From contig CM049418.1 in assembly GCA_026929865.2 (NCBI GenBank), forward strand, positions 14,475,001 through 14,539,000: a stretch of 64,000 bases of DNA, read 5' to 3'. Made by a program: the position numbers and the translations under genes. Positions 7,419-40,985 of this stretch are shown in pieces (the first letter of the stretch is position 1; each line of letters starts with the position of its first letter). Source of the DNA: Hyperoplus lanceolatus. Its lineage: Eukaryota > Chordata > Actinopteri > Uranoscopiformes > Ammodytidae. The notes beneath the pieces were generated by a model. That model saw only the letters and a program-made list of their open reading frames with translations. It was not told the origin of the DNA and made no database searches.

Positions 7419-25991
<18,573 letters not shown>

Positions 25992-30155: not shown

Positions 30156-33100
30156 CTACCACATGTTGTCACAGCGGTAGAGAGTGTTGATTCTCTGGAT
30201 GTCCAGGTGACTGAGGTACTTCCTCTGACCAATGTTCACGCCGCTTTGCTTAGTCAACACCGTCGGACTGCCGTCTACACTGAAGAAATACCTGAGGGGG
30301 AAAAAAAAAAAGACATTTCTGAATTCAACCTATGTTAGCTGGATAAAATGGATTTCTAATGTGTAATCTTGATGTATTTTATGCCCCTGTAAAGCTCTTT
30401 GAATGGCCTTTACAATGAAGAAATAGCATACAGTTCTGGAAAAAAATTAAGAGACCACTCAAAATGTTTAGTGTATCTTGTTTTACTATTTATAAGCATA
30501 TGTTTGAGTAAACTACTGAAAATAGTTCTACCAAATTCTACCCCAAAATTGTCGTTAAAGAGCATTTTTCATTAAGTAATGAAGAGATGAAGAAAAATCC
30601 AGACTGGTCTCTTAATTGATTCCAGAGCTCTATGTTAGCTAGATACATTGGATTTCTAATATCTAATCTTGATGTATTTCATGCCCCTGTAAAGCACTTT
30701 AAATGGCCTTGTGTGGGGGAATTGTGCTACACTAATTACACTTGCCTTGCCTAAAAGAAATAATGCCCAATAACATTAGGACTTACTTTCCGTAGTGCAT
30801 TATGGAATCCAGGTCGTACGGCAGGTTTAGCGTGTTCCCGTGTTTCACCATGAAGTTCTTTGATTTCCCTTTAAATCAGAAATGTAAAATGACGGCATCT
30901 TTAGAAGCAATGCAGACATGTTGAAAATACAACAGCTGCACCAGTGTGTGTATTTCGAGCATGTTGAAAGCGTGTCTGTTTTTTTATTTATTCATCCACT
31001 ACTATTTTAACTTTGTTTTTTACTGCTTACATGTTCAAAATAAAAGATAAAGATATTATACCTTGGATAATATTTCTAAAAGTACCGGGGTATAATGGAG
31101 AATTAATATACGTAGGCATTCTCTTTACTTATTGCCACTATCTTTTAGTAGAATCCAGTTTTACATTCATTTTGAGGTGGCTGTGGTCGCATTAACTGTA
31201 CGGATATAAATGATGTTTTTGTAGGTATGAGTGTTAATGTATATATATTGCCGTTAACGTTTACATCTTTTAAAAAAATGGACCCGATTGATACAAAAAT
31301 GACAAACAAAATGGTAGCCGAGTTGTTACCGTGTTTGATGTGTTCCCACGCCACGGAGACGTATTGGTCTCGGTCGACCCGTGTGTGTTCGTGGTGAATG
31401 CCCAGCGCGTGGATCACCTCGTGGCAGATGTTCCCCACGCCACAGGACGGGCTGCAGTACAGCTTCTGGGCGCCGCCCTGAGCGCCAACGAACGACGCAC
31501 AGCTGGACAGAGAGAGAGAGAGAGATTTGATTAAAACACTGCATTTTACATGATTAAAAATGAAGTGCAGTTTTTATGTGCGAGAGTGAGTTCAAAGGGA
31601 AATGTCACAATAAAAATAAAACGTTTATTGGCCAGGTTTGGGTAAACAAACAAGGACTTTGACTTGGGTAACCATTTGCTCTCAAGGTACAACATTCACT
31701 ATGCATCAATGGTGATAAGCTCAGAATGTATAAAATTAAATAAAAAAAGTTGCAAGTGATTCTGTATGCACTGGGGAAAGAAATCCACGGACTATGTGAA
31801 CTGGTATGTTGCTACATCATGCATCAAAAATACTGACCCCACTAAAATTACACTTTTAAAAGCAATTTTGTAAGAGAAAGTAAATATATCTCACCCTCTG
31901 CCGTTGACAAACTGGAGGTAGTTGTACTGTGTGGTGTGTGGGATGAAGAGGACGCACGTGACGGCAGAAATCATCTGTAAGGCAGCGTAGATTTTGTCTT
32001 TTTGTTGAGCTGTTTAGGAGGGAAAACAGAAAGGAAAAACCTGCTTCTTCACCTGTACCAATGTAAAGGGAGCGTGTCCATGTTCCCACAGCCTGTTTAT
32101 GGCAAACTTTTATATAGTCGAACAATATAATAGAGAATAGTATAATAGAGGTATTTCTGTGTGTGAGATTGGGAGTGTGTCACTCCTATGCCAACCCACC
32201 AAGCTCGTCACTTATGGTGAAAGGTACAACACCGTGTGCCCAAATGGACTCCACAGCATTCCTGTCCTCCTGTTAGTTAAGACATTAAGAAAATCAATAA
32301 CCTTTATTTTCACTCGAAAGAAACCCTCATTTACAGTGACAATAAGCACACACACACACAATTATAAGGATAACATGTAAAATTAGAGATAAAATAGGAT
32401 AAAAATTATACATTAATTTAAATAAAATAAGAGCAAGAATATAAGATGAAATGCTAGTCAAGATGATTTTGAATTGGTCAATACTAAAACTGTTAATATC
32501 TTTAAAATTATTATTCTTTATAAGAAATGTAAACTGCAGGTTTACCAGACATATACACAGTAAATATTAGGGAAGAATGTTTCATAATAGCTATCTTAAT
32601 GTTGAAGGTATGCTTAATAAATACTAGTAAAATTCAATAAAATAAAAAGTGCCAGCCATTAAAAGAGGTGCTCAGAGGAACTTTCCATACGTGTTAACTC
32701 TTGCGACCCCTTTGGTCAAAAGCGGTAGTCTTTTTACTATGCCATGATAAAGGCATTAAGAAAAAAATATAAAAATAGCATTCTTTGCACCGATGATCTC
32801 ATATGCTTTTACATGTTGTTTATGATCAGAGGAAAAATTAGACTGTTTCAGAAATATTTTAAAGCTCCTTTAACGTTGAAACGATGCATCTTAAAAATAC
32901 TAGTGAAATTCCATGGTAAAAGCAGAAATAACAATAGTTCAGTCTCACCGATATCAAAATGTCTCCCTCTTCAACCATCATGTCGTCAAGCTCTGGGACC
33001 GTGAAAGTTTAAGATAAAAACCGTTACTGGATATTGAGTGAAAATGCATTTTTTATATATCTACATATTTGATCAGATAAGTTTACCTTCTAAGGTTTCT

Positions 33101-36100
33101 GCGCTGTCCTTCTGCTGCTCAGGATCTACGAAAATGTAAGAAATTTGAATAACATAAGATTATTATTATTATTTTTTTTAAATAGCTTGCACATCATGCA
33201 TCACACACAACCCAAAGACATGTAAGGAATTTGAAATTACAAAAAAAAAAAAAAAAAAAAAAAATCCAGTGAGCACCAGTTACCTGCTGCTTTACTAGTC
33301 GCATTACCCTTGTCATTTAAAGGGACGCCGCCATCTGAAAGAGAGAAATCTAGTTAATACTGGGGCCACTTTATACATTTAATAACCAGGATTTATGCTT
33401 TCATCAACTGAAAATCCCACTTCAACTGAATGTCCTTGCAAAACATCTTTCATGTAACATATTCATCTGCATCTTAAAGACCCACTTCAACGTTGCAAAT
33501 GACCAAAAAAAAATCCACAACCAAAAAGCTTAGTGAGCACCAGTTAAATCCCACTTCAACTGCAGGGCCATCCACAACCAAAGACTCTTCAACTGCATCA
33601 ACTGAAAATCCCACTTCAACTGCAGGGCCATCCACAACCAAAGACTCTTCAACTGCATCAACTGAAAATCCCACTTCAACTGCAGGGCCATCCACAACCA
33701 AAGACTCTTCAACTGCATCAACTGAAAATCCCACTTCAACTGCAGGGCCATCCACAACCAAAGACTCTTCAACTGCATCAACTGAAAATCCCACTTCAAC
33801 TGCAGGGCCATCCACAACCAAAGACTCTTCAACTGCATCAACTGAAAATCCCACTTCAACTGCAGGGCCATCCACAACCAAAGACTCTTCAACTGCATCA
33901 ACTGAAAATCCCACTTCAACTGCAGGGCCATCCACAACCAAAGACTCTTCAACTGCATCAACTGAAAATCCCACTTCAACTGCAGGGCCATCCACAACCA
34001 AAGACTCTTCAACTGCATCAACTGAAAATCCCACTTCAACTGCAGGGCCATCCACAACCAAAGACTCTTCAACTGCATCAACTGAAAATCCCACTTCAAC
34101 TGCAGGGCCATCCACAACCAAAGACTCTTCAACTGCATCAACTGAAAATCCCACTTCAACTGCAGGGCCCAACAAAGACTATGCAGGGCCATCCACAACC
34201 AAAGACTCTTCAACTGCATCAACTGAAAATCCCACTTCAACTGCAGGGCCATCCACAACCAAAGAAAATCCCACTTCAACTGCAGGGCCATCCACAACCA
34301 AAGACTCTTCAACTGCATCAACTGAAAATCCCACTTCAACTGCAGGGCCATCCACAACCAAAGACTCTTCAACTGCATCAACTGAAAATCCCACTTCAAC
34401 TGCAGGGCCATCCACAACCAAAGACTCTTCAACTGCATCAACTGAAAATCCCACTTCAACTGCAGGGCCATCCACAACCAAAGACTCTTCAACTGCATCA
34501 ACTGAAAATCCCACACGCCAAACCAAAAACCCCACTTCAACTGCAGGGCCATCCACAACCAAAGACTCTTCAACTGCATCAACTGAAAATCCCACTTCAA
34601 CTGCAGGGCCATCCACAACCAAAGACTCTTCAACTGCATCAACTGAAAATCCCACTTCAACTGCAGGGCCATCCACAACCAAAGACTCTTCAACTGCATC
34701 AACTGAAAATCCCACTTCAACTGCAGGGCCATCCACAACCAAAGACTCTTCAACTGCATCAACTGAAAATCCCACTTCAACTGCAGGGCCATCCACAACC
34801 AAAGACTCTTCAACTGCATCAACTGAAAATCCCACTTCAACTGCAGGGCCATCCACAACCAAAGACTCTTCAACTGCATCAACTGAAAATCCCACTTCAA
34901 CTGCAGGGCCATCCACAACCAAAGACTCTTCAACTGCATCAACTAAAATCCACTTCAACTGGCATCAACTGAAAATCCCACTTCAACTGCAGGGCCATCC
35001 ACAACCAAAGACTCTTCAACTGCATCAACTGAAAATCCCACTTCAACTGCAGGGCCATCCACAACCAAAGACTCTTCAACTGCATCAACTGAAAATCCCA
35101 CTTCAACTGCAGGGCCATCCACAACCAAAGACTCTTCAACTGCATCAACTGAAAATCCCACTTCAACTGCAGGGCCATCCACAACCAAAGACTCTTCAAC
35201 ACTGCATCAACTGAAAATCCCACTTCAACTGCAGGGCCATCCACCAACTCAAATGAAAATCCCACTTCAACTGCAGGGCCATCCACAACCAAAGACTCTT
35301 CAACTGCATCAACTGAAAATCCCACTTCAACTGCAGGGCCATCCACAACCAAAGACTCTTCAACTGCATCAACTGAAAATCCCACTTCAACTGCAGGGCC
35401 ATCCACAACCAAAGACTCTTCAACTGCATCAACTGAAAATCCCACTTCAACTGCAGGGCCATCCACAACCAAAGACTCTTCAACTGCATCAACTGAAAAT
35501 CCCACTTCAACTGCAGGGCCATCTTCATCAACTGAAAATCCCACTTCAACTGCAGGGCCATCCACAACCAAAGACTCTTCAACTGCATCAACTGAAAATC
35601 CCACTTCAACTGCAGGGCCATCCACAACCAAAGACTCTTCAACTGCATCAACTGAAAATCCCACTTCAACTGCAGGGCCATCCACAACCAAAGACTCTTC
35701 AACTGCATCAACTGAAAATCCCACTTCAACTGCAGGGCCATCCACAACCAAAGACTCTTCAACTGCATCAACTGAAAATCCCACTTCAACTGCAGGGCCA
35801 TCCACAACCAAAGACTCTTCAACTGCATCAACTGAAAATCCCACTTCAACTGCAGGGCCATCCACAACCAAAGACTCTTCAACTGCATCAACTGAAAATC
35901 CCACTTCAACTGCAGGGCCATCCACAACCAAAGACTCTTCAACTGCATCAACTGAAAATCCCACTTCAACTGCAGGGCCATCCACAACCAAAGACTCTTC
36001 AACTGCATCAACTGAAAATCCCACTTCAACTGCAGGGCCATCCACAACCAAAGCACTTCTACTGCAGGGCCATCCACAACCAAAGACTCTTCAACTGCAT

Positions 36101-38687
36101 CAACTGAAAATCCCACTTCAACTGCAGGGCCATCCACAACCAAAGACTCTTCAACTGCATCAACTGAAAATCCCACTTCAACTGCAGGGCCATCCACAAC
36201 CAAAGACTCTTCAACTGCATCAACTGAAAATCCCACTTCAACTGCAGGGCCATCCACAACCAAAGACTCTTCAACTGCATCAACTGAAAATCCCACTTCA
36301 ACTGCAGGGCCATCCACAACCAAAGACTCTTCAACTGCATCAACTGAAAATCCCACTTCAACTGCAGGGCCATCCACAACCAAAGACTCTTCAACTGCAT
36401 CAACTGAAAATCCCACTTCAACTGCAGGGCCATCCACAACCAAAGACTCTTCAACTGCATCAACTGAAAATCCCACTTCAACTGCAGGGCCATCCACAAC
36501 CAAAGACTCTTCAACTGCATCAACTGAAAATCCCACTTCAACTGCAGGGCCATCCACAACCAAAGAAAATCCCACTTCAACTGCACATCCAAAACTCTTC
36601 AACTGCATCAACTGAAAATCCCACTTCAACTGCAGGGCCATCCACAACCAAAGAAAATCCCACTTCAACTGCAGGGCCATCCACAACCAAAGACTCTTCA
36701 ACTGCATCAACTGAAAATCCCACTTCAACTGCAGGGCCATCCACAACCAAAGACTCTTCAACTGCATCAACTGAAAATCCCACTTCAACTGCAGGGCCAT
36801 CCACAACCAAAGACTCTTCAACTGCATCAACTGAAAATCCCACTTCAACTGCAGGGCCATCCACAACCAAAGACTCTTCAACTGCATCAACTGAAAATCC
36901 CACTTCAACTGCAGGGCCATCCACAACCAAAGACTCTTCAACTGCATCAACTGAAAATCCCACTTCAACTGCAGGGCCATCCAAACCAAAGACTCTTCAA
37001 CTGCATCAACTGAAAATCCCACTTCAACTGCAGGGCCATCCACAACCAAAGACTCTTCAACTGCATCAACTGAAAATCCCACTTCAACTGCAGGGCCCCC
37101 ACCAAAGACTCTTCAACTGCAACGATCCCACTTCAACTGCAGGGCCATCCACAACCAAAGACTCTTCAACTGCATCAACTGAAAATCCCACTTCAACTGC
37201 AGGGCCATCCACAACCAAAGACTCTTCAACTGCATCAACTGAAAATCCCACTTCAACTGCAGGGCCATCCACAACCAAAGAAAATCCCACTTCAACTGCA
37301 GGGCCATCCACAACCAAAGAAAATCCCACTTCAACTGCAGGGCCATCCACAACCAAAGACTCTTCAACTGCATCAACTGAAAATCCCACTTCAACTGCAG
37401 GGCCATCCACAACCAAAGACTCTTCAACTGCATCAACTGAAAATCCCACTTCAACTGCAGGGCCATCCACAACAAAGACTCTTCAACTGCAGGGCCATCC
37501 ACAACCAAAGACTCTTCAACTGCATCAACTGAAAATCCCACTTCAACTGCAGGGCCATCCACAACCAAAGACTCTTCAACTGCATCAAACACAATCAACC
37601 CTTTAGAGTTGCTGGCTGCATTAACAGAACTCAAAAAAAATATAGAGAATAATTTAAGAGTTATTCTGAGGGCAAGTTCTAGGGGTGGGGAAGGGAAAAA
37701 TGTGTGAAAACGGTCACCTGTATATTGAACTCTCACCAATAAATTAAAAAAAAAAAATGTTAATCTCTATATTGTTGCATTATGGGTGTCTAACGTCTAA
37801 TGATCATTACATCACCTATTGCTGTGTCATCTAAAGTGACTCCTCCATCTAGAAAAAAAATAAATCTTGGTAATAGTAGTAAAGCCACTTTAATAAAAAC
37901 AACCTTAAGAAATGTAAAGTATTTGAACCACATGGTTTTGAACAAGTCAATACATCCCTAGTGGTAATATGCATTGATCACAGACCTGAGGAAGGAGTAG
38001 TCACATTATGGGTGGCATTCAAAATGGCTGCACTAACTGAAAAAAGAAAAATTAGTGAGTTTTATCATTTTTGGGAAGGATTTCAAGTAAGGCAGTGTCA
38101 AGGTTTTTTATTGTCAGTTCTGATATATGCAAGACCTACATCAGAATCAAAATGGCGATAGACAGATTATTTTGAAATGTGCAATGTGATGAATTCATAT
38201 TTACAATATGTGCATATGCAGTCAACTGGATTTGTAGTCCAACCATGTACACTACATCTCCCAGTCTACCTTAAGAGTCTCTGGCTTCTAGTGGCGCACC
38301 ATTGAATTGACGCTTAGATTACATTAATGTTAAAATAAAACACAAACCTTGCGCTTGATCCGTAGTGTTCTGAGTCATATTTAAGGGGACACAACCAACT
38401 AGAACGAGGAAAAAAATAATTAAACAAGTTAATTTCTATAGCACAATTCAGACACAATACCCATGACAAAAGGCATTAACAAAACTATAGAAAAATAGCA
38501 TTCTTTGCACTGATGGTCTCGTTTGCTGTTACATGTAATTTATCTTCGTCTGAGGGAAAATTTGACCGTTTCAGAAATATTTCAAAGTTCCTCGTAGCAC
38601 CTTTAAACAGTATTTTAGCAGAATATGTCTTCAGTTTGAACGTGTCACTTTACCTGTGGAAATGCAGAGGACGACAAGGAGCCACAT
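30156..38687 (-). CDS. Secreted astacin-family zinc metalloprotease (six-cysteine type), complete
   Basis: Minus-strand coding exons: 38654-38687, 38348-38398, 37816-37848, 33284-33334, 33087-33125, 32949-32992, 32200-32269, 31895-32009, 31330-31502, 30787-30868, 30156-30291. They total 828 nt (275 aa), with every phase consistent. A signal peptide opens MWLLVVLCIST. The propeptide is low-complexity and acidic and ends ELDDMMVEEGDILI, where D80 fits the aspartate switch of astacins. The catalytic motif HEVIHALGIHHEHTRVDR carries zinc ligands H173, H177 and H183 and base E174. The Met-turn SIMHYG supplies M227 and Y229. Extra cysteines just before the zinc motif (CSPSCGVGNIC) fit teleost six-cysteine astacins, relatives of hatching enzymes and nephrosin. 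It should cleave extracellular proteins after secretion. The domain ends at YRCDNMW, without CUB or EGF. A minisatellite array interrupts intron 3. A TATATTAA at 38809-38816 is a possible TATA box. Exact paralogue not assigned. Confidence 0.9.
30431..30630. mobile_element. Mariner-type MITE copy 1
   Basis: TA duplications (30429-30430 and 30631-30632) flank ends CAGTTCTGGAA and, inverted, TTCCAGAGCTC, with subterminal attaagagacca. A second copy is at 63377-63610. It is 200 bp, non-coding, and lies in the last intron of the astacin gene. Confidence 0.8.
32663..32869. mobile_element. TTAA-flanked MITE, family 3 copy 2
   Basis: TTAA at 32659-32662 and 32870-32873. The ends AGAGGTGCTCAGAGGAAC and the block ggcattaag match the copy at 58324. 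It lies in an astacin intron. Confidence 0.8.
33541..37588. repeat. 60-bp-period tandem array, about 4.05 kb
   Basis: Roughly 65-70 head-to-tail copies of a 60-bp unit. The + strand unit contains cccacttcaactgcagggcc and then atccacaaccaaagactctt. Most copies are identical; variants include 39-bp units lacking an internal 21 bp (for example 34262, 36566, 36650, 37281 and 37319), one longer unit at 34168-34190, and small frame-shifting edits. Because the period is divisible by three, long open frames appear on both strands. On the + strand the unit reads as a Thr/Ser-rich mucin-like 20-mer (STAGPSTTKDSSTASTENPT); on the - strand as an acidic-hydrophobic one (VDAVEESLVVDGPAVEVGFS). The array lies within intron 3 of the minus-strand astacin gene, between two propeptide mini-exons. 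Degenerate units border it (33405-33430 and 33480-33530). Confidence 0.95.
38452..38602. mobile_element. TTAA-type MITE, family 3 copy 3, 5'-truncated
   Basis: It matches the right two-thirds of the family (acccatgacaaaaggcatta, gcattctttgcactgatgg, gttcctcgtagcacct) and ends at TTAA 38603-38606. The left end is not seen. It sits 51 bases from the astacin signal-peptide exon. Confidence 0.75.
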
Positions 38688-39714: not shown

Positions 39715-40985
39715 TACAGTACTTAAAGGGTGATCATGGATACTTAACATTTCACATTTCTTCATATTTAATTTCAAGCCAGATGCTTTGGAAAATAAGG
39801 ATATTTCTTTTAATGCTGCTGGAATTTGTGCCGTATTTTTCAAAAATAAAGTGGTGTCATCTGCCAGTTGACTTATAACCAATGAATTTCCCATTACCTT
39901 TAATGGTTGGATATTTTGACAAATTTTTTACGTGAATTGCCAATAACTCAACAAGGATAAACAATAAAGGCGAGGTTGGACAACCTTGACGAGCACCTCT
40001 TTTTATGTCAAAACGCCCTGTTGTTCCAACTGGTAGGGAAACTGAACTATTAATGCCATTATATAGTAGGTTAACTATATTAATGAACTGTTCTCCAAAA
40101 CCAAAATACTCCAGTGTTTTTATAATAAAAGAATGTTCAACTGAATTAAAAGCTTTGTAAAAGTCCAAAAAAAAAGAATCACTCCATCATCTTCAATGAA
40201 ATGTCTATAGTCCAATAAAAACCAATCTTATATTATTATGCATGGATCTATCCCTGAGAAAACCAGATTGGGTGTCAGATATAATATGCGTCAACCATCC
40301 TTTCACATGTGTAAACAGTTTATAGTCAGTATTCAATAAGGTGATAGGGCGAAGATTGTCAATGTATCTCTTATCTTTACCTGGTTTGGGGATGAGAGTT
40401 ATAAGTCCCTGTTTCATCGTAGGTGTAGTAAGTGTCCCATTTCTCAAAATGTCAATTATGGCATCAAATAAAAAGCTTTTAATTTCCTCACAATTTTTTT
40501 TAATAAAAATTAGAAGTCAACCCGTCTTGACCTGGTGCCTTTCCTCCTGCTATTCTCTTGACTGCTTCATCTAATTCTGACATTCTGATCTCGGACTCAC
40601 ACATTTCTTTAAAAGCTAAATCTATCTGGGGGACACGTGACTTTATACTTTCTAGAAAAATATCTTAGTCAAAGGTGGAAAACTCCGAAGAATAAAGTTT
40701 GGAGTAGAATTTATAAATGTCTTCAGATATCTTTCTTTGATCTGTACATTCAGTATCATTGACCGTTAATGTATTTATCACCTTTCTCTCCTGTCTGCTT
40801 TTCTCTAATCCACTAAAATAAGAAGGATTTTTTCCCCCTTCCTCTACCCATTTAGCCCGAGATCTAACATAAGCACCTTGGGCCTTTTTGATATATAAAT
40901 CATCTAACTTGTTTTGTAGGCTTATGCAGTTACTTTTATCAGCATCAGATATTACAGTATTGCTACAACAATCACGTATGTCCAA
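39715..40985 (-). pseudogene. LINE reverse transcriptase remnant (L1-like)
   Basis: Minus-strand pieces in order include WVEEGGKNPSYFSGLEKSRQ, LITLIPKPGKDKRYIDNLRP, DFYKAFNSVEH, GARQGCPTSPLLFIL and LADDTTLFL. These are successive reverse-transcriptase motifs, with the ADD box in place of the usual FADD start. Frameshifts between pieces and a missing endonuclease and 5' end make it inactive. The spacing and GxRQGCPxSPLLF form fit L1-clade fish LINEs. Confidence 0.85.

Follow-up and report, generated by a model that had tools for sequence, protein, structure and literature searches.

The window analysed here, a 64,000-nucleotide stretch of contig C24 of Hyperoplus lanceolatus (C24:14475001–14539000), contains a tandem array of 60-bp units at positions 33546–37588 (plus strand; 4,043 bp), inside a predicted intron of a minus-strand astacin gene. 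The explanation we favor, and consider probable, is that PTS-coding DNA of the mucin type was captured in the antisense orientation and recently amplified, giving rise to an intronic minisatellite. The unit is homologous, in the same reading frame, to two PTS exons found elsewhere in the genome.

Tandem Repeats Finder reported a period of 60 at 33546–36066 and 36054–37281, with overlapping rows reaching 37584. The units were delimited by cutting at a 17-base anchor, ACTTCAACTGCAGGGCC, and the right-edge piece (50 bp) was cut by hand at 37590. This gave 67 pieces: 51 identical 60-mers, four copies of one 39-mer, and 12 others. The 60-bp pieces are identical throughout, and none carries a substitution alone. 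The 39-bp variant is an in-frame 21-bp deletion of the unit. The first-pass annotation had estimated roughly 65–70 nearly identical units, which the 67 anchors confirm. At 60 bp, the unit falls within the range of minisatellites (tandem units of approximately 10–100 bp). Read in the PTS sense on the plus strand, each unit comprises 20 codons and encodes TENPTSTAGPSTTKDSSTAS, with 30 % T, 25 % S, and 10 % P.

A single unit has two open frames on the plus strand (ENPTSTAGPSTTKDSSTAST and KIPLQLQGHPQPKTLQLHQL) and two on the minus strand (VDAVEESLVVDGPAVEVGFS and LMQLKSLWLWMALQLKWDFQ). The earlier claim of two open frames per strand is therefore correct for the unit; it does not extend to the whole array. 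Because irregular units change the phase, every frame of the real array is interrupted: the plus frames contain 33, 25, and 4 stops, and the minus frames 80, 104, and 14. That a 60-bp unit has four or more open frames is not remarkable; when the bases of the 60-mer were shuffled 5000 times, at least four of the six frames were open in 10.3 % of cases.

We judge the expansion to be recent because 51 pieces are identical, and this near-identity fits the earlier proposal of recent expansion or homogenization. The mutation rate is taken as 1e-8 per base and generation. At this rate, the absence of any change in 3,060 bp gives, as a rough guide, a 95 % upper bound on the spread of approximately 98,000 generations. 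Assembly polishing could also make the units look alike.

The host gene was modelled with 12 exons on the minus strand. With the array left out, the model encodes 292 amino acids with no internal stop, and all 11 introns are GT–AG. The product matches the Pfam Astacin domain (1.7e-52) and contains the zinc site HEVIHALGIHHE; the zinc-site motif of astacins (M12A) is HExxHxxGxxHE. The best solved relative is 3lqb (1.6e-37), which we take to be the zebrafish hatching enzyme ZHE1. The gene begins with a signal peptide exon (exon 1, 38654–38687, MWLLVVLCIST), followed by five mini-exons of 51, 51, 33, 51, and 39 nt, a 44-nt exon, and five catalytic exons. The mini-exons all run from phase 1 to phase 1, and the 44-nt exon ends in phase 0. 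Mini-exons 2 (38348–38398), 3 (37986–38036), and 4 (37816–37848, DGGVTLDDTAI) lie on one side of the array. On the other side are mini-exon 5 (33284–33334, DGGVPLNDKGNATSKAA), the block of which resembles that of exon 4, and exons 6–12 (within 30156–33125), which encode the remaining propeptide and the catalytic domain HEVIHALGIHHEHTR according to the gene model, Pfam, and PDB matches. All of these exons are on the minus strand.

Intron 4 spans 33335–37815 (minus strand; 4,481 bp) by the predicted exon joins, and the array would occupy most of it. The GT–AG splice sites and the complete reading frame of the predicted gene model place the array in an intron. The array had been described as flanked on both sides by propeptide mini-exons of an astacin gene, and the exon ends proposed for them, 37816 and 33334, agree with our model. 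The propeptide (33087–38398, minus strand) is spread across five tiny phase 1–1 exons. By eye, it has several N-x-S/T sites, some of which look like duplicates. The host gene shares the astacin domain with teleost C6astacins and hatching enzymes (PMC2939575, PMC8812170). PMC2939575 gives the ancestral teleost hatching enzyme gene nine exons, with the pre-pro region extending from exon 1 to the middle of exon 4; the host gene differs in having 12 exons, with the pre-pro region distributed over seven. A search of 20 stretches of 10 kb, covering 100 kb on either side (tblastn to E 0.1), found no second astacin gene that could serve as an empty-site comparison, and no further copy of the array unit was found over the same distance. 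Immediately upstream of the host gene, at 39860–40516 (minus strand), are RVT_1 reverse transcriptase fragments of a LINE-like element (6.9e-10; the second fragment, at 0.0084, is below the cut-off). To the left of the astacin gene, exons with RhoGAP domains at 17996–21481 (plus strand) belong to a plus-strand gene (5.5e-13; the other match, 6.9e-05, falls just below the cut-off).

The first-pass annotation had suggested that the array may change propeptide length or splicing. Exonization of all or part of the array in the astacin mRNA, with a lengthened propeptide as the result, is in our estimate highly improbable. The array is flanked by two phase-1 exons, and a minus-strand frame is open from 37766 into the first part of the array. 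The acceptor strength does not speak against exonization either: the best minus-strand acceptor-like site in the unit scores 2.5, and two of the 11 acceptors of the gene (range 0.8 to 9.2) are weaker, at 2.1 and 0.8. The donors, however, do. The sense (minus) strand of the unit contains seven GTs, the best of which scores 0.1 as a donor. The 11 modelled donors range from 0.9 to 5.5, and the weakest of these is not far above the value for the unit. The splice-site weights were simple ones, and donor scoring covered the regular unit. Splicing from the best donor of the unit would leave the open frames in phase 0 or 2, while exon 5 requires phase 1. Because the donor is weak and in the wrong phase, use of the array as an astacin exon is unlikely; in addition, the frames through the array are broken, and the full astacin protein is obtained without it. 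The suggested effect on the propeptide is thus unsupported.

The genome (806.7 Mb) was searched with two array units as the query, and 13 candidates were scored, which is a lower bound. At E values up to 0.001, the matches among these 13 were the array itself, a set of clustered sites on contig C6 (best E 2.8e-17, 73–81 % identity), and C24:424954–425037 (5.3e-14), which is on the same contig as the array. When the array peptide was used as a protein query, the array was the sole hit at E up to 0.001, which gives no independent support. The C6 cluster sits in an open reading frame of 2385 amino acids (L010:62–7219, minus strand), which contains three Mucin2_WxxW stretches (9.5e-69); a VWD match (1.8e-6) lies at a distance of 1.2 kb. 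Judged by these domains, the cluster belongs to a gel-forming mucin, of which the reading frame is the central exon. The C24 relative lies inside a PTS frame of 681 amino acids (C24:423296–425341; L012:3296–5341, plus strand), and after this frame comes a match to GPR128 GAIN subdomain A that passes its cut-off (9.9e-07). The matches to the GPR128 N-terminal domain and to GAIN subdomain B fell below threshold at this gene, with 23.8 bits against a required 27.2 and 14.5 against a required 21.7, respectively. We call it ADGRG7 (GPR128)-like, an assignment that is probable but not proven. A consensus of the C6 mucin exon (TEPPTTTAGPTTTTKSTTTP) was built from 51 twenty-codon units; compared with the ADGRG7-like exon it scores 129, with at most 45 in 200 codon shuffles.

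The array unit matches the C6 consensus at 48 of 60 bases, ungapped and in the same frame. The 12 differences are distributed 7, 2, and 3 over codon positions 1, 2, and 3. The closest single unit found is in the ADGRG7-like exon at C24:424640–424705 (PTATAGPTTIKDSTNPPTASTE against PTSTAGPSTTKDSSTASTE), where 50 of 57 bases match with one 9-nt in-frame gap. One array unit scores 69 against the ADGRG7-like exon and 59 against C6; the best of 300 codon-order shuffles reached 41.5 and 48, respectively. For three array units the scores are 103 (ADGRG7-like) and 146 (C6); the highest values in 200 shuffles for each comparison were 42 and 43. The reverse-complement controls gave 12 and 16. From these alignments, the array, the C6 mucin exon, and the ADGRG7-like PTS exon appear to belong to a single repeat family. 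Of the two relatives identified, the ADGRG7-like exon is the nearer one, and it lies on the contig that carries the array. A T/S/P-rich unit of whole codons with same-frame homology to PTS exons makes the array a PTS repeat by sequence descent. A mucin-like plus-strand 20-mer had already been recognized in the array; the homology supports that description and goes further in linking it in frame to PTS exons.

PTS sequence is biased in composition, and codon shuffles control for composition, not for parallel evolution of codon order. The array could be an ordinary intronic minisatellite unrelated to mucins by descent, its PTS likeness being a case of convergent low complexity. PTS exons are indeed low in complexity, and a whole-codon period with four open frames is not rare, as the base shuffles above indicate. 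We nevertheless consider convergence unlikely, since in the comparisons with two unrelated genes, both aligned in the same frame, no codon-order shuffle scores as high as the array, the C6 exon has the same 20-codon period, and the reverse complements score so low.

The mucin frame is not kept in the array. Seven of the 11 unique irregular events shift it, and the four that remain in frame are at chance level, which we count in favor of a mucin-derived minisatellite. The 11 events exclude the right-edge piece and the repeated 39-bp variant, which is in frame (with it included, 5 of 12 are in frame); for this count, an 88-bp piece was divided by hand into a 39-bp variant and a 49-bp unit. The irregular units differ nearly all by indels, with two substitutions, and the aligner scoring favors gaps. 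Residual long-read errors fit these units as well as mutation does, in which case the true frame may be intact. Provided that the assembly is right, the array lacks the long unbroken PTS frame of a mucin gene and shows no sign of coding constraint. The C6 mucin exon, by contrast, keeps one frame over 7.1 kb.

These data also bear on whether the array could instead serve as the PTS exon of a mucin-like gene on the plus strand, nested antisense within the astacin gene and ending in VILRASSRGGEGKNV before a stop. The array frame is homologous to coding PTS exons, and at the right edge it continues into a tail (37573–37707, plus strand) with 39 codons past the array before the stop (NTINPLELL...GEGKNV). 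This open reading speaks against the minisatellite reading. The plus strand contains no GT over the 4,043 bp of the array, where 85 are expected from base composition, so the array has no internal donor, and the plus-strand acceptor-like site in each unit scores 2.6, above two of the 11 modelled acceptors of the astacin gene. The missing GTs, however, are explained by the copying of one GT-free unit, and the coding C6 exon has 215 GTs with 135 expected. Against a nested gene stand the frame shifts described above, and the edge-unit frame, which stops at 33455–33457. Moreover, only two plus-strand acceptors score above 0 in 33300–33620 (1.7, and 2.6 inside the array). The tail has no significant relative in Pfam, the PDB, or the loci searched. 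In the window and four loci, the tail peptide found only itself and a chance match (E 1.4), and none of the 20 neighboring 10-kb stretches, which reach 100 kb to each side, yielded a relative. The only Pfam match was New_glue at 0.014, below the cut-off, and the PDB gave nothing better than 0.28. VWD, CysD, SEA, and CK domains were not detected by Pfam in two plus-strand reading frames of the array and its flanks. On balance, we regard a nested mucin gene as very unlikely.

The left flank contains two further features. Comparison of this flank by blastn revealed a degenerate edge unit at 33402–33444 (plus strand), outside the array and 86 % identical to the array units over 43 bp; it is the mucin frame of this unit that ends at the stop given above. 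Directly abutting the array, at 33504–33545 (minus strand; 76 %), is an incomplete copy of the donor of exon 5 together with the start of intron 5 (TAACTGGTGCTCACT...), with a score of 44 against 32 for the best of 300 shuffles. Ten pairs of mini-exon blocks were compared, and exon 3/4 and exon 5/6 were dropped for overlap. Among the other eight, exon 4/5 (47; best of 100 shuffles 32) and exon 3/5 (33; shuffles up to 27) are above their shuffles, and the remaining six are not. Some of the astacin mini-exon blocks, for example those of exons 4 and 5, look duplicated from these scores. Between mini-exon 4 and the array, at 37590–37660 (minus strand), there are a pyrimidine tract and what by eye may be the relic of another mini-exon; from this region a minus-strand frame stays open into the array. 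An origin of the array itself from an astacin mini-exon is not supported, as the unit matches PTS exons instead.

For the captured minisatellite that we favor, the following course may be envisaged. A small piece of DNA, akin to the PTS exons of both the ADGRG7-like gene and the gel-forming mucin, would have come as such and in the antisense orientation into the astacin propeptide intron. We infer that its entry took place during or beside a mini-exon duplication. The captured unit, next to a partly duplicated mini-exon, would then have expanded and been homogenized to approximately 67 units, by unequal exchange or slippage. The array would be spliced out with the astacin intron, and its plus strand would now be without coding constraint.

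According to PMC6269512, human MUC2 exon 30 has 98 units of 69 nt, of which 32 are unique. Like such mucin PTS exons, the array is a VNTR-like repeat of whole codons rich in Thr, Ser, and Pro. It differs in lying antisense in the intron of another gene, with a broken frame and no mucin domain found beside it. It is also more uniform, as 51 of its 67 pieces are identical DNA, whereas 32 of the 98 MUC2 repeats are unique according to that paper. The ADGRG7-like exon, for its part, is one diverse PTS frame in which no long homogeneous array was seen. With intronic minisatellites and VNTRs the array shares its tandem arrangement, its intronic position by the gene model, a degenerate edge, and a homogeneous core; it differs from others in that its unit is related to coding mucin repeats and is antisense to the host gene. 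Among the literature matches listed, no title concerned a PTS-derived antisense intronic array, which is a weak negative.

The array is probably of no consequence for the astacin gene. It would be of more interest for its ancestry than for its function, as mucin-repeat DNA in a silent antisense position. It would bear on the origin of mucin domains and of the PTS likeness between unrelated genes. The presence of one PTS family in a gel-forming mucin, an ADGRG7-like GPCR, and, antisense, a protease intron of a single genome could point to movement as DNA. More generally, and as a tentative proposal that we hold to be less likely than not, PTS units may move between loci as DNA and amplify on landing, with most remaining silent minisatellites and a few, where strand and frame are right, becoming new mucin domains. 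A young, homogeneous, non-coding antisense PTS array would serve as a natural control, one in which expansion without protein selection can be set against that of coding arrays. If PTS units do travel as DNA, the birth of mucin domains would be testable by synteny across related fish.
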